DNA of 64,000 nucleotides from Armatimonadota bacterium (lineage in GTDB: Bacteria; Armatimonadota; Fimbriimonadia; Fimbriimonadales; Fimbriimonadaceae). The stretch is taken from NCBI GenBank assembly GCA_018268355.1, contig JAFDWR010000001.1:1141858-1205857 (forward strand), written 5' to 3'. The stretch's first letter is position 1, and the number at the start of each line of letters is the position of its first letter. Made by a program: the position numbers and the translations under genes. This document shows positions 3-14,309 of this stretch, piece by piece. Below the pieces are notes generated by a model. The model ran no database searches, was not told the DNA's origin, and saw only the letters and a list, made by a program, of their open reading frames with translations.

Positions 3-767
3 GCTCCAACCCAGAACACGGGCTGGAACCAAGAAGCGGCGATGGACATCCAGTGGGCGCACGCGATGGCACCATCGGCCAAGATCTACCTCGTCGAGGC
101 CAACTCCCCGAGCATCAACGACCTGACGGTTGCGGTCAAAAAGGCAGCGACACTTCCCGGGGTGCGATGCGTCTCGATGAGTTGGGGTGCGACGGAGTTC
201 AGCGCGGTTTCCCAGTTCGAATCCACGTTTACGAAGTCCGGCGTGGTGTTCTTCGCCTCGTCAGGCGACATCGGCGGTCAAAAGAGCTGGCCCGCCCTTT
301 CGCCGAACGTGATTTGCGTCGGTGGGACTTCCCTAAAGCTCTCATCGGGAGTTTGGAACGACACGGTTTGGTCGGGCAGCGGCGGCGGCATCAGCAGCTT
401 CTTTAACCGGCCCAGCTATCAGAACTCGGTCTCCAGCATCGTTGGACCCAAGCGCGGCGGACCTGACATCTCCGCGGTGGCCGACCCCGCCACCGGTGCC
501 GCCGTCTATGCACCGACCTCCGCCACCAACAGTGCGTGGATGGTGTTCGGCGGGACGAGCCTCTCTGCGCCAATTGTGGCTGGCGCATACAACTTGTCAG
601 GCCGGACGACGCAATCGTCCGCTCTTGAACTCAGCATCATCTATTCCAGGATCGGAACCGCGGGCGTCCGCGACGTGGTTTCCGGGAAGGCCGGCAACAA
701 TTCGGCGCGCGCAGGTTACGACCTAGCGAGTGGAGTTGGCTGTCCGAAGGGTATCGGCGCTTTCTAG
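3..767 (+). CDS. S53 (sedolisin-like) serine-carboxyl peptidase, 5' partial
   Basis: C-terminal catalytic part of a secreted acid-active endopeptidase; the reading frame is already open at the left edge, so the propeptide and the first part of the domain lie outside the window. The sedolisin catalytic residues are visible: the Glu/Asp pair spaced four apart (E codon 33-35, D codon 45-47, in NQEAAMD), the oxyanion Asp in SSGDIGG (codon 266-268) and the nucleophile Ser in GGTSLSAP (codon 558-560). The C-terminal calcium-site signature D-V-V-S-G...GYD...G-G-C-P is present, so the 3' end looks complete. A 10-bp dyad follows the stop. Family assignment is firm; substrate is unknown. Confidence 0.9.
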   Translation, partial: APTQNTGWNQEAAMDIQWAHAMAPSAKIYLVEANSPSINDLTVAVKKAATLPGVRCVSMSWGATEFSAVSQFESTFTKSGVVFFASSGDIGGQKSWPALSPNVICVGGTSLKLSSGVWNDTVWSGSGGGISSFFNRPSYQNSVSSIVGPKRGGPDISAVADPATGAAVYAPTSATNSAWMVFGGTSLSAPIVAGAYNLSGRTTQSSALELSIIYSRIGTAGVRDVVSGKAGNNSARAGYDLASGVGCPKGIGAF

Positions 768-3056: not shown

Positions 3057-4946
3057 TTAGGCTGCTTTCGGGTCGTCGAAGATGAGGGCAAGCTCGGAGT
3101 CCAGCTTCGGAACTTCCTGCGTCCGGTCGAACTCAAAGATCGCCTGGGCCACCCGAGTGAGGAGCGGCGGTCGCGGGCTTCCCTTGAGGATCGCCTCAAG
3201 GTGGGGCAGTACGACGCGGTAGACGTCCTTTTTGCTTAGGGCTTGCAGCTTCGAGGCCTGTCCCTTCGACGCCATCTTTTCATACAGCGGAACGAGCCAG
3301 ATCAGCGTGCGCAGAATCTCGGTTTGCTGGGGGCTGAAGTCGAGTCGCAGACTGGCGCGAGCAATCCACGGCGCGAGGCGGGCCAATCGATGGTCGCCTT
3401 CTTCAAGCTCGGACTTGGGAGCCCAATCCCGAACTTCGCCAAGCCAGTTGGCCATCGTCGCCGCAGGTTGTTCCTCGCGGTACATGGTCACCCGGTTTCG
3501 TCCTGCACGCTTGGATTCATAGAGGGCGATGTCCGCCGCCTTGATCAGCCGCGAGCTCTCGAGTCCGTCCTTCGGGAAGACCGCCGCGCCAAACGAGGCG
3601 GTGATCTGCCGGGTTCGGCCCGACTTGGTGACGTAATAAATCGCTTCGATTCGCTGGCGAAGTCGCTCGGCGGTGGCTTCGACCGCCGCCCTGCTCGCGC
3701 CGGGCAAGACGAGGCAGAATTCCTCGCCACCATAGCGACCGGCAAGGTCGTACGGTCGGAGGCCGTCCTTGAGTTCGGCCGAGACCAGTCGCAAAACTTC
3801 GTCGCCCGCGTCGTGGCCTTCTTCCTCGTTGAAGGACCGGAAGTGGTCCACGTCGACCATGATCACGCCAAGCTCAACGTTGGTCCGCTGGGCTTCTTCA
3901 AGGCGTTGCTCCAGGTACTCGTGCAGCCGGCGGTGATTCGCAATCCCAGTCAGCGGATCGTGGGTCGCGAGCCTTTCGACATTCTCAAACAGGATTGAGG
4001 CGTTCAAGGCCAGCGCGACATGCTCAGCAATCGTCTCGAACAGCTCAAGGTTCTCTTCGAAGTGCGGGTCGCTGTCCCGTCCGACGAGTTCCATCACGCC
4101 AAGCAGGCGATCTTGGATCACGAGCGGGTGGACACTGATGCCCTTCGGCTTCAGGTAGCAGAACTTCGCCTCAAGCTGGGCGGTCATTGCGGTCTGGCTT
4201 ACGTCGGGGCCAAAGTAGGCCTCACGTCGCTCGGCGACAAGCTCCGCAATGCAGGTACTGCGCGAATTCGGCGAAAGTCGCTGGAGTGACTGGATTGCCG
4301 ACCGGTTCACGCCAACGCTGGCGGAAAGGTCGAGCCAGTCCCCTTCTGGATTGATGGTCCAGAGCAAAACCGCGGCAAGCTCGGTGGACGAGGCGATCAC
4401 GTGGGCCGACGACACCGCAAGGTCTTCACGACCCGCGTTCATCGAAAGCGACTTGCCCAGCCTCTTGAGGGTGTTCGCCATCCGACCGCTACGACCAGCT
4501 TGGCGCTTGGCCGACCGCTCATCGTGGGCGTTGACGACAAGAACGTAGAGGTCGGAGATCGCGGGCGAACTCACGCCGCCGCTGAAGTAGCGATAACCGT
4601 CCAGATAGAGCGACCCGTAGTTGCCGCGATAGCTGCTCTCGAGCAAGGGACCGAGTTCCGTCGGTAAGAGTGTGTCGTGACGGCGGAAGAAGGGAACCCT
4701 GCGGGCCAGCCCCCACGTCTGCTTAACGTAGCCCAACGAATCGAGAATCGCGAGTCCGATTTGATCGGGATCCAAGTGCGTCAGAATCGAAGGTGCGGGC
4801 AAATCCAGAACGAGGGTCTGGCCGTCATCGAGAGGCAGTGCCACGGGAAACCCGGTGCCACTCAGAGGCAAGCCATCTGCGTTTGTTCTCACGCCGAGTT
4901 CGCGCAGTAGGCCGACCAGTCGCTCATACGTACTGGATTCGTTCAA
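3057..4946 (-). CDS. GAF-GGDEF diguanylate cyclase
   Basis: Makes the second messenger c-di-GMP from two GTP. A GAF-like sensory domain lies at about residues 170-315 and a GGDEF domain at about 330-490, with active-site GGEEF (about residue 404). An RPYD inhibitory I-site sits exactly five residues before GGEEF, so product inhibition is expected. The N-terminal 150 residues and the helical C-terminal 120 residues are unassigned. No ATG lies near the domain start. I chose TTG 4946, because the frame continues upstream to 5138 only by overlapping the divergent lipoprotein gene. No transmembrane segment is seen, so it is probably cytoplasmic. Confidence 0.85.
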   Translation of the reverse strand: MNESSTYERLVGLLRELGVRTNADGLPLSGTGFPVALPLDDGQTLVLDLPAPSILTHLDPDQIGLAILDSLGYVKQTWGLARRVPFFRRHDTLLPTELGPLLESSYRGNYGSLYLDGYRYFSGGVSSPAISDLYVLVVNAHDERSAKRQAGRSGRMANTLKRLGKSLSMNAGREDLAVSSAHVIASSTELAAVLLWTINPEGDWLDLSASVGVNRSAIQSLQRLSPNSRSTCIAELVAERREAYFGPDVSQTAMTAQLEAKFCYLKPKGISVHPLVIQDRLLGVMELVGRDSDPHFEENLELFETIAEHVALALNASILFENVERLATHDPLTGIANHRRLHEYLEQRLEEAQRTNVELGVIMVDVDHFRSFNEEEGHDAGDEVLRLVSAELKDGLRPYDLAGRYGGEEFCLVLPGASRAAVEATAERLRQRIEAIYYVTKSGRTRQITASFGAAVFPKDGLESSRLIKAADIALYESKRAGRNRVTMYREEQPAATMANWLGEVRDWAPKSELEEGDHRLARLAPWIARASLRLDFSPQQTEILRTLIWLVPLYEKMASKGQASKLQALSKKDVYRVVLPHLEAILKGSPRPPLLTRVAQAIFEFDRTQEVPKLDSELALIFDDPKAA

Positions 4947-4991
4947 ACTAATCTTGTTTTCGGCAAATGAAATGCAGGAGCTTAGCAAGCG

Positions 4992-6743
4992 ATGATACGA
5001 GCCTTTGGAATCTGGTCCCTGATGGTGTTCACCGCACTGCTTTGCCTCATCGGATGCGGTGGAAGCGGAGGCGGGCTCAATGCCGTCCGATTCTTCGTCA
5101 CACCGAACTGGACGGGGTCGGGCGGGATCGCCGGTCAATCCCTTGAGGCGAGATTGGTCAGGCTCGACGGAACGACCTACCTTGGGCCGGAGCTGATCAA
5201 CCGCACAGGTGGCCCGACGGAGATCGCCTTTGATGGCGTTACGCCCGGGATCTACCGCGTTGAATTGAAGCTTTATGCCGGGAGTGATGGCCTCGGCGGC
5301 ATTGCCGGCGTTTGCAACATCGTCCAGAACGTGAACTCCGAGCAGCGGCTACGACCGGTGGTTGGCGCGGCAGCTACGGCAGTCACGGTCACGCCATCCA
5401 GCTCGCAGATTCAAGTCCCGCGCGCCACTCGCTATGCCGCGGCCGGAAAGACCTCGACGAACGCGCTGACCTTCCTTCCGCTAAACGGGCTGACCTGGAG
5501 CAACACCGGACCCGCAACGATTTCGGCAGACGGCTGCCTTGCCCCGACCGCGGCTGGTGCCGGTCAGGTTCGGGCCACCCTCGGGGCAACCCAGGGAACG
5601 GCGAACTTCAACGCCTCCAACTCGACCCCCAAGCAAACTCGCTGGACGGTGCTCGTCTACATGAACGCGGCGAACGACCTTGAGCAGTTTGCGGAGAACA
5701 ACGTTGACCAGATGGAGCGCGTCGCTGGCACCGACAACGTTCGCTTCGTCGTGCAATGGAAGGAGTCGACCAATGCCCAGCCTGGGTCCGATTTCAACGT
5801 CACCCGCCGCATGGTTCTTGAAGGAAACAACGTGCAAGGCGTTCAATCGCCCACCGTCCAGAACCTCGGGAGCGGCGTGGACATGGGCAGCGCGCAAACG
5901 CTCCAGAACTTCATCGCCTGGGGCAAGGCGAACTACCCGGCGGATAAGTATTGCCTCGTGTTTTGGAATCACGGTCGCGGTTGGCGACGGCTCTCGGCTG
6001 AATCTGAGCTGCGGCCTCTCGGCGTGAGCTATGACGACGAGACCGGCAACGCCATTCAAACCCACGAGCTGAGTCTCGCGGTCGGCCCCGGCAACTTCGA
6101 CATCATCGCCTTCGACGCGAGCCTCATGCAGATGCTCGAGGTCGCCACCGAGCTTCGGAACAAGACGCCCTATGTGGTCGGCAGCGAAGAAAGCCCTCCC
6201 GGAGGCGGCTACCCGTACGACGTCATCTTTGCGAAGTTCAAGAACACGCCGAACGCCACGCTCCTCGACCTCACCAAGTCGTTCTGCGATGGTCTCGTTG
6301 ACCTTCCCGCTTATGCGACCTCGAAGCTCACCCAGAGCTCGATCGAGACCGCCAAGCTGGGGCCGGTGATCACGTCGGTGAACAACCTCGCGACCGCGAT
6401 GCTCGCCGAGCGCGCCAACCTGCAGACCATCGTTCCTGCGGCGAGGCTCGCCGCCCAAGGCTACGGATCACGCACCTACCGCGACCTTTGGGACCTGACT
6501 CTGAAGATCGAGAATTCGGCGGGTTGCCCGACCACGGTGAAGACCGCTTGCGCCCAGGTTCGGGTGGCTTTGTTCGACGCGATTGCCTACAACCGCAACA
6601 ACAATCGCTCGCCCAATAGCTTTGGCCTTGCGATTGAGTTCTCAGCCTCGGGTCCTTACACCTCGCTGCTCGCAGCGGATTACGGCCTCTTGCAGCTGGC
6701 CCAGCTCACGGCTTGGGACGATTGGCTTGCCCTCGCCCCCTGA
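4992..6743 (+). CDS. Clostripain-like (C11) lipoprotein with Cys-to-Ser active site
   Basis: 583 aa. Lipoprotein signal peptide with lipobox LIGC (Cys22), then a Ig/BIG2-like region (about residues 125-205), then a C11 clostripain-type domain beginning at WTVLVYMNAANDLE (about residue 218). The catalytic His is present in FWNHGRGW (about residue 325). The family's catalytic Cys in the FDACLM motif is Ser here: FDASLMQM, Ser377, codon AGC at 6120-6122. The enzyme is therefore probably inactive as a cysteine peptidase, or uses Ser. AGGAG lies 11 nt upstream of the ATG. It is divergent from the diguanylate cyclase gene. Confidence 0.85.
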   Translation: MIRAFGIWSLMVFTALLCLIGCGGSGGGLNAVRFFVTPNWTGSGGIAGQSLEARLVRLDGTTYLGPELINRTGGPTEIAFDGVTPGIYRVELKLYAGSDGLGGIAGVCNIVQNVNSEQRLRPVVGAAATAVTVTPSSSQIQVPRATRYAAAGKTSTNALTFLPLNGLTWSNTGPATISADGCLAPTAAGAGQVRATLGATQGTANFNASNSTPKQTRWTVLVYMNAANDLEQFAENNVDQMERVAGTDNVRFVVQWKESTNAQPGSDFNVTRRMVLEGNNVQGVQSPTVQNLGSGVDMGSAQTLQNFIAWGKANYPADKYCLVFWNHGRGWRRLSAESELRPLGVSYDDETGNAIQTHELSLAVGPGNFDIIAFDASLMQMLEVATELRNKTPYVVGSEESPPGGGYPYDVIFAKFKNTPNATLLDLTKSFCDGLVDLPAYATSKLTQSSIETAKLGPVITSVNNLATAMLAERANLQTIVPAARLAAQGYGSRTYRDLWDLTLKIENSAGCPTTVKTACAQVRVALFDAIAYNRNNNRSPNSFGLAIEFSASGPYTSLLAADYGLLQLAQLTAWDDWLALAP

Positions 6744-13562: not shown

Positions 13563-14309
13563 TTGAACAACTTAAGAAGAACTAGAGGGTTCACCCTGAT
13601 TGAACTCCTCGTGGTGATCGCGATCATTGCGATCCTATCCGCGATTCTGTTCCCCGTCTTCGCCCAGGCCAAGGAGGCCGCGCGAAAGACCACGTCGCTC
13701 TCCAACCTACGCCAGCTCGGACTCGCTTGGACGCTCTATGCGGGCGACTTCGATGATGCCGCCGCTCGGACCCTCACAATGGGTTCATCTGGTCGCCTCA
13801 TCTATTGGTGGGGCAGCTGGGACGGGACCATCCTCCGCGAGGAGGAGGGACCGCTCTTTCCTTACACCAAGGGGAAAGGGATCCAGTCCGACCCGAGCTT
13901 CCCAAACCGCCTTCGCACTGCGGTTGGGTTCACCGGCTATGGCTACAACTATGCCTACCTTTCGCCCAGCGGTCGAGCCGCGGTCCTAACCGAGGCCGAA
14001 GGGCCCGCGAAGACGGTGGCATTTGCCTCCTCGGCGCGCATCAATAACTGGGACTATGCCACGCCGACCCTGGAGGCGAACCCCTATCTCGACCCGCCCT
14101 CGAGCAACTTCCCTGGCTTCCAGGGGCGGCACTCGGCGGTCGGCACCATTGTGTGGATCGACACCCATTCCAACGCCCGTCGGCCGGTCTTGCGGCTCAC
14201 CGATTTTGGCTTTGGATTCCGGGCCGACGACTTCCGGCGGGCCAACCTTGGCGACATTGACGAGGACAACAACCCCCTCACCGACGAACTCTTTTCCCTT
14301 ATAAAATGA
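13563..14309 (+). CDS. Type IV pilin-like / T2SS pseudopilin
   Basis: 248 aa. The class III (prepilin) signal [16 protein letters not shown] begins at residue 9, cleavable by a prepilin peptidase before Phe with Glu5 conserved. It is followed by the [14 protein letters not shown] segment typical of the many pseudopilins of Armatimonadota and planctomycete-like bacteria. The globular domain ends in an Asp-rich region (GDIDEDNN) like DUF1559-type proteins. The start is TTG 13563, 8 nt after GGAGG; the ATGs at 13556 and 13559 are in another frame that stops after a few codons. Its stop overlaps the next ATG (ATGA), so translation is coupled. It is controlled by the B12 riboswitch upstream. Confidence 0.85.

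Follow-up and report, generated by a model that had tools for sequence, protein, structure and literature searches.

A surface-anchored relative of clostripain that occurs throughout the Armatimonadota carries Ser in place of the catalytic Cys of peptidase family C11, and its conservation pattern suggests, with a probability of about 0.5, a selected active site in which a Ser-His pair takes the place of Cys-His. We found the gene in a 64,000-nucleotide stretch of DNA from a member of the Fimbriimonadaceae (the window, to whose numbering all positions refer). A working Ser-His site is favored by the strictness of the Ser, by the intact His, Gly and Asp around it, by a coupled change in the substrate pocket, and by returns to Cys at one and the same locus. 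The first-pass annotation had set a binding-only pseudo-enzyme beside a serine-nucleophile variant; of this pair the overall pattern favors Ser-His, and what the annotation missed is that the change is phylum-wide, ancient and coupled to a second site.

The gene and the domains of its product are as follows.

4992 to 6743, plus strand: gene for a Ser-type C11 lipoprotein of 583 amino acids (ORF translation; PF03415, E = 3.1e-43).
4992 to 5057, plus strand: signal peptide with lipobox LIG-C22 (translation).
5370 to 5627, plus strand: Ig-like (Big_2-like) domain, residues 127-212 (AlphaFold2 model; VIA-align 2).
5631 to 6740, plus strand: C11 (clostripain-fold) domain, residues 214-583 (PF03415; model against 9cip_B).

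PF03415 (Peptidase_C11) is the sole Pfam match of the product, covering residues 222-524 at 149.1 bits (gathering cut-off 25.8), and PF03415 matches nowhere else in the genome that the window comes from; the clostripain equivalog TIGR02806 of NCBIfam scores 60.4 bits, below its required 550 bits. In an AlphaFold2 model built from 51 sequences (mean pLDDT 91.5), residues 214-583 superimpose on clostripain 9cip_B with Z 39.6 and rmsd 2.5 over 350 aligned residues, and VIA-align 2 also matches the model to 6mzo (Z 34), 6n9j (Z 35), 6nag and PmC11 (3uws); both the clan CD fold and the C11 C-terminal extension are present. Residues 127-212 match the Big_2-CBM56 structure 7quz (Z 11.5, rmsd 2.2, 82 aligned), and the lipobox Cys22 is among the positions conserved in at least 90% of rows in one family alignment. 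The product is a C11 homolog that lacks the catalytic Cys, in its Ala-Cys motif, by which C11 cysteine peptidases are recognized.

Three residues make up the core of its active site.

5970 to 5972, plus strand: His327, dyad histidine, present in 130/130 Ser rows, 18/18 Armatimonadota Cys rows and 53/53 outside Cys rows.
6114 to 6116, plus strand: Asp375, equivalent to Asp177 of PmC11, its S1 aspartate (PMC4850288), present in 130/130, 18/18 and 53/53 of the same rows.
6120 to 6122, plus strand: Ser377 (AGC), nucleophile position, occupied by Ser in 130 Armatimonadota rows, by Cys in 18 and by Pro in 1.

Positions 6111-6131 read ttc gac gcg agc ctc atg cag, or F374-D-A-S377-L-M-Q, in the frame of the 4992-6743 ORF, and phmmer and profile alignments place Ser377 in the column of the catalytic Cys (FDAC) of solved C11 structures. 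The first-pass annotation had likewise read FDASLM for an expected FDACLM, with AGC at 6120-6122, and had held that the His of FWNHGRGW and the fold are kept; both readings stand, the first in the 583-codon reading frame, the second with His327 present and PF03415 matched at the E-value given above.

A first scan of genome contigs with the single protein as query gave no match; a search of 201 relatives gave matches in 154 genomes. Beside the window's own locus we took 147 loci among the matches listed, leaving out two contig-end fragments of one genome (G098), and aligned their six-frame ORFs with MAFFT. The resulting 150 rows plus the window have 131 Ser, 19 Cys and 1 Pro at position 377, and 150 His and 1 Thr at position 327. 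Once two duplicate ORFs were removed (those of L048, at the same place as L014), 149 Armatimonadota rows remained, window included; position 377 is Ser in 130 of them, Cys in 18, Pro in 1, and Ala, Gly or Thr in none. In one genome two C11 genes lie in tandem (L014 and L048); one is of Ser type with an SPP loop, the other of Cys type with an LTP loop. A further locus, L130, has a second C11 domain adjoining its Ser-type domain, degenerate, in which Thr stands for the His and Pro for the nucleophile; this second domain is a picture of decay within the Ser-type C11 family.

These counts bear directly on whether the Ser is an accident. AGC lies one base from TGC, as a sequencing error or recent decay would have it, yet Ser stands in 130 of the 149 rows, drawn from many families of Armatimonadota, and the prospect raised by the first-pass annotation that close relatives all have Cys proved untrue. 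Its proposed alignment of related genomes returned the same Ser in 129 of 148 aligned relatives, and because of this recurrence chance or error is excluded; sequencing error and recent loss are ruled out. The annotation had also allowed for another catalytic Cys, and here the Ser rows offer no conserved Cys column: C321, the best-kept Cys of the window protein, is Cys in 25/130 of them, and at column 503, the commonest Cys column (57/130), the window protein has none. Position 376, directly before the Ser and so adjoining the site, is Cys in 23/130 Ser rows (DCSLM), which is the one point in favor of a role passed to another Cys; the window protein has Ala there, and a shift of the nucleophile to an adjacent or distant Cys is ruled out as well. 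Taken together, error, recent decay or replacement by another Cys is a very improbable account of Ser377.

The Ser form appears to be confined to one phylum. Relatives named in a genome contig scan (80 named loci) belong to the Fimbriimonadaceae, Fimbriimonadales, Chthonomonadales and other Armatimonadota, where all have Ser except L187 and the Cys form L165, and loci named Elusimicrobia, Bdellovibrio, Oligoflexia or WOR-3 all have Cys. Every one of 53 domains from outside the Armatimonadota has Cys at position 377. A further, non-exhaustive survey of overlapping genome sets (Elusimicrobiota, Bdellovibrionota, WOR-3 and seven plasmid-borne homologs) gave 104 matches: 97 Cys, 6 with a gap at the site and 1 Ser. 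That Ser domain (L242) comes from the same genome (G206) as L152, whose locus fits the window's family; a Ser variant from outside the Armatimonadota was not found among the 53 outside domains and the 104-match survey. One Elusimicrobia genome (G201, that of L199) has 20 PF03415 matches, several of them in tandem.

Within the Ser rows the active site is tightly constrained. The His-Gly motif H327-G328 is present in 130/130 Ser rows, Gly328 being invariant, and the residues invariant in all 130 include H327, G328, G330, D375, S377, L378, S401, P402, P403, G406 and Y409. Fourteen of the 22 invariant positions of the Ser rows fall within four active-site segments (hypergeometric p 2e-8), against 10 of 26 in the outside Cys rows, and the Ser site is therefore at least as constrained as that of the Cys enzymes. 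Codon usage bears on what is being conserved: in the 151-row alignment, duplicate included, the Ser377 codons of 130 Ser relatives are AGC 65, AGT 12, TCG 38, TCC 8, TCA 6 and TCT 1, making 77 AGY and 53 TCN with 8 changes of class on the tree. Judged from these codons, Ser itself is held at position 377 by selection, both codon families being used. The switching of codon class speaks for selection for Ser and is not proof of catalysis, because other conserved serines of the C11 domain switch similarly (5 to 12 class changes).

The main rival is a conserved pseudo-protease, in which the Ser-His pair together with a Pro-rich pocket would hold a peptide or partner but leave it uncut, and Ser would be kept for a hydroxyl hydrogen bond to His327 or to a ligand. 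There are precedents: the trypanosome metacaspase TbMCA4, of the same clan and reported to have the same Cys-to-Ser replacement, is called a catalytically inactive pseudopeptidase in a review (PMC6657590), and bacterial pseudo-orthocaspases with a Tyr-Ser pair are described as presumed inactive although their acidic pocket is conserved (PMC6426788). Replacement of Cys by Ser usually cripples cysteine proteases, by a reported factor of about 10^4 in TEV (PMC4576821). The Tyr-Ser proteins have, however, lost the His, whereas all 130 Ser rows of the window family keep His, Gly and Asp unchanged, and Ala, Gly or Thr never occurs at position 377. A functional Ser-His pair is favored because only Ser occupies the site, and because an Arg of P1 type is kept in relatives. 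The pseudo-protease nevertheless stays a close rival because of the TbMCA4 precedent, the cost of the exchange in TEV and the fact that activity is a prediction; we hold it to be a tentative explanation, and a serious one.

A second site has changed together with the nucleophile.

6192 to 6200, plus strand: Ser401-Pro402-Pro403, S1-pocket loop coupled to Ser377, invariant in 130/130 Ser rows.

The loop motif is SEESPPG, with S401-P402-P403 in all 130 Ser rows. At residue 402 the 18 Armatimonadota Cys rows have T in 6, E in 6, V in 5 and P in 1; the 53 outside rows have E in 52 and A in 1, with Pro402 in 0/53; and the Cys rows of the further survey have E 85, I 3, T 2, V 2, D 1, S 1 and a gap in 3. 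Profile alignment combined with published residue numbers equates residue 402 with Thr204 of PmC11, 403 with Met205 and 405 with Asp207. The acidic pocket of PmC11 is described as formed by Asn50, Asp177, Thr204, Gly134, Met205 and Asp207, with Thr204 lining the S1 pocket (PMC4850288). Because Pro402 tracks Ser377, and because residue 402 corresponds to this S1-pocket Thr204, the nucleophile and the pocket wall have changed jointly. A pair test on the tree found 6 independent starred-branch pairs; on average 5.8 of them join Pro402 to Ser, and none shows the opposite (median p 0.031); an earlier pair test had 5 independent pairs (p 0.0625). A wall altered together with the nucleophile also suits the pseudo-protease. 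L149 is the sole Cys row with a Ser-Pro-Pro loop, and it is possible that it represents an intermediate state.

The place of autoprocessing in PmC11 gives a further view of substrate preference.

6012 to 6023, plus strand: R341-P-L-G344, at the place of the PmC11 Lys147/Ala148 autocleavage site (model alignment).

Residue 344 of the model aligns with residue 148 of 3uws_B, in a loop with pLDDT of about 63. The R341 column has Arg in 125/130 Ser rows, nearly always directly before the Gly or Ala at 344. In the window protein the Arg stands two residues further from Gly344 (R-P-L-G), and the canonical Arg that relatives have directly before Gly344 is missing; because of this shift the window protein may not cleave itself at the R341-G344 place, and loss of the canonical P1 Arg is a point for the pseudo-protease. 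The same residues weigh on whether a Ser-type enzyme would be a peptidase at all. Ser nucleophiles are suited to esters, and a coupled pocket change would fit a new substrate, as expected if the protein hydrolyzed esters or served on the cell surface as a transferase of the acyl- or transpeptidase-like kind. Retention of both the S1 Asp and the processing-place Arg points instead to basic peptides and makes such a non-peptidase improbable. If the Ser-His site is active, the protein is probably an Arg-directed surface hydrolase.

The history of the exchange was examined with quick IQ-TREE searches, using an 83-row tree that left out near-identical and short rows; the degenerate domain of L130 was included in the first tree without a state and left out of later ones. 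Ser rows alone as a clade were rejected on the 83-row quick tree (p-AU 0.0001). A clade that joins eight nested Cys rows to the Ser rows, defined after the first trees had been seen and with its Cys rows chosen by hand, had a likelihood 55 log units above that of the free quick tree (p-AU 0.925). Because the Ser-only clade is rejected and the clade with nested Cys rows is better, the simplest reading of the trees would be one Cys-to-Ser switch in the Armatimonadota followed by about five returns to Cys. The return groups are L014; L053, L069, L085 and L100; L120; L122; and L142, each without Pro402. Two or more Cys-to-Ser origins, for which the AGY and TCN codons and the first free trees might speak, are unneeded, since the single clade has the better likelihood; nor does the codon split call for separate origins, because codon class switches at other conserved serines too.

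The genomic setting links the Ser and Cys forms.

3057 to 4980, minus strand: GAF-GGDEF (diguanylate cyclase) gene, start codon approximate (Pfam GGDEF 9.5e-45, and GAF).

By tblastn over 197 Armatimonadota loci, many with short flanks and some represented twice, 74 loci have a match to a GAF-GGDEF gene, and in 73 of these it lies upstream of the C11 gene in divergent orientation. Among L003-L150, 55 loci have this neighbor, 51 with Ser and 4 with Cys (L053, L085, L100 and L120), and these four are single C11 copies in their own genomes among the matches listed. Since the four nested Cys forms share the GAF-GGDEF neighbor and are single copies, Ser and Cys forms interchange at one locus. That Cys should come back several times at one locus, with the neighbor unchanged, would be odd for a dead enzyme and tells against the pseudo-protease; shared neighbor and Cys returns are no proof that the Ser forms are active. 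We place a little short of even odds the fuller scenario in which an ancestral Armatimonadota switch from Cys to Ser, with the Ser-Pro change in the S1 wall, was reversed several times at the same locus, giving interchangeable active Ser and Cys enzymes beside a gene for c-di-GMP synthesis. A surface hydrolase linked to c-di-GMP is plausible. Elsewhere in the window, positions 42-767 (plus strand) encode the C-terminal portion of a protein resembling subtilases (Peptidase_S8, 1.3e-10) whose start lies near or before the window edge, and 13563-14309 (plus strand) a pseudopilin-like protein with an 18-letter prepilin methylation motif, as read from the ORF list.

We propose that the active Ser-His protein would be a lipid-anchored, outward-facing hydrolase of the C11 fold, with Ser377 rather than Cys as nucleophile; activated by His327, it would attack the carbonyl of the substrate. 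Asp375 would shape the S1 pocket for a basic P1 residue, giving a putative specificity for Arg or Lys, and the re-formed wall of Ser401-Pro402-Pro403 would fit the pocket to serine chemistry or to an altered substrate. Relatives would process themselves, and the whole may be tied to surface events under c-di-GMP control.

With clostripain and PmC11 (C11, clan CD) the window protein shares PF03415, the whole-domain fold, the His-Gly motif and the S1 Asp, and its relatives share with them an Arg or Lys at the processing place; it differs in Ser for the catalytic Cys, in the S401-P402-P403 loop, and in being a lipoprotein with a preceding Ig-like domain. Clan CD is described as a clan of cysteine peptidases (PMC12445089); the available text of two accounts names no Ser-type family in it (PMC12445089, PMC4357240), the word 'serine' being absent from the main text of the second. 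We found no Ser-type C11 in the open-licence literature on clostripain or peptidase C11, Armatimonadota, Fimbriimonas, serine nucleophiles and pseudoproteases. TbMCA4 resembles the window protein in its clan, its Ser for catalytic Cys and its reported link to membranes, and differs as a single trypanosome protein of family C14 that is reported inactive; we know of no phylum-wide coupled pocket change in its case. The bacterial pseudo-orthocaspases share Ser for Cys and a kept acidic pocket, and differ in belonging to family C14 and in having Tyr for His, unlike the window family with its His327 in 130/130 rows (PMC6426788).

It has long been asked how a protease can exchange its nucleophile and avoid an inactive intermediate; answers have so far been sought in the PA clan and through the directed evolution of TEV. 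The Cys/Ser switch among the chymotrypsin-like proteases of the PA clan, and the evolution of TEV-Ser, likewise exchange the nucleophile within one fold, although that fold is a different one and the TEV case was made in the laboratory. The family described here combines Cys relatives outside the Armatimonadota with, inside that one phylum, a majority of Ser forms, returns to Cys nested among them, the Cys row L149 with its Ser-Pro-Pro loop, and a second site that is coupled to the first. Active Ser forms would give the caspase fold a second catalytic type and make it wrong to annotate such genes as 'cysteine peptidase' or 'pseudo-enzyme'; inactive ones would amount to a very large family of pseudo-proteases, strictly conserved and linked to a diguanylate cyclase. 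We suggest that this surface-anchored clostripain relative of the Armatimonadota would be either a natural serine-type protease of the caspase fold or an unusually well preserved pseudo-protease.
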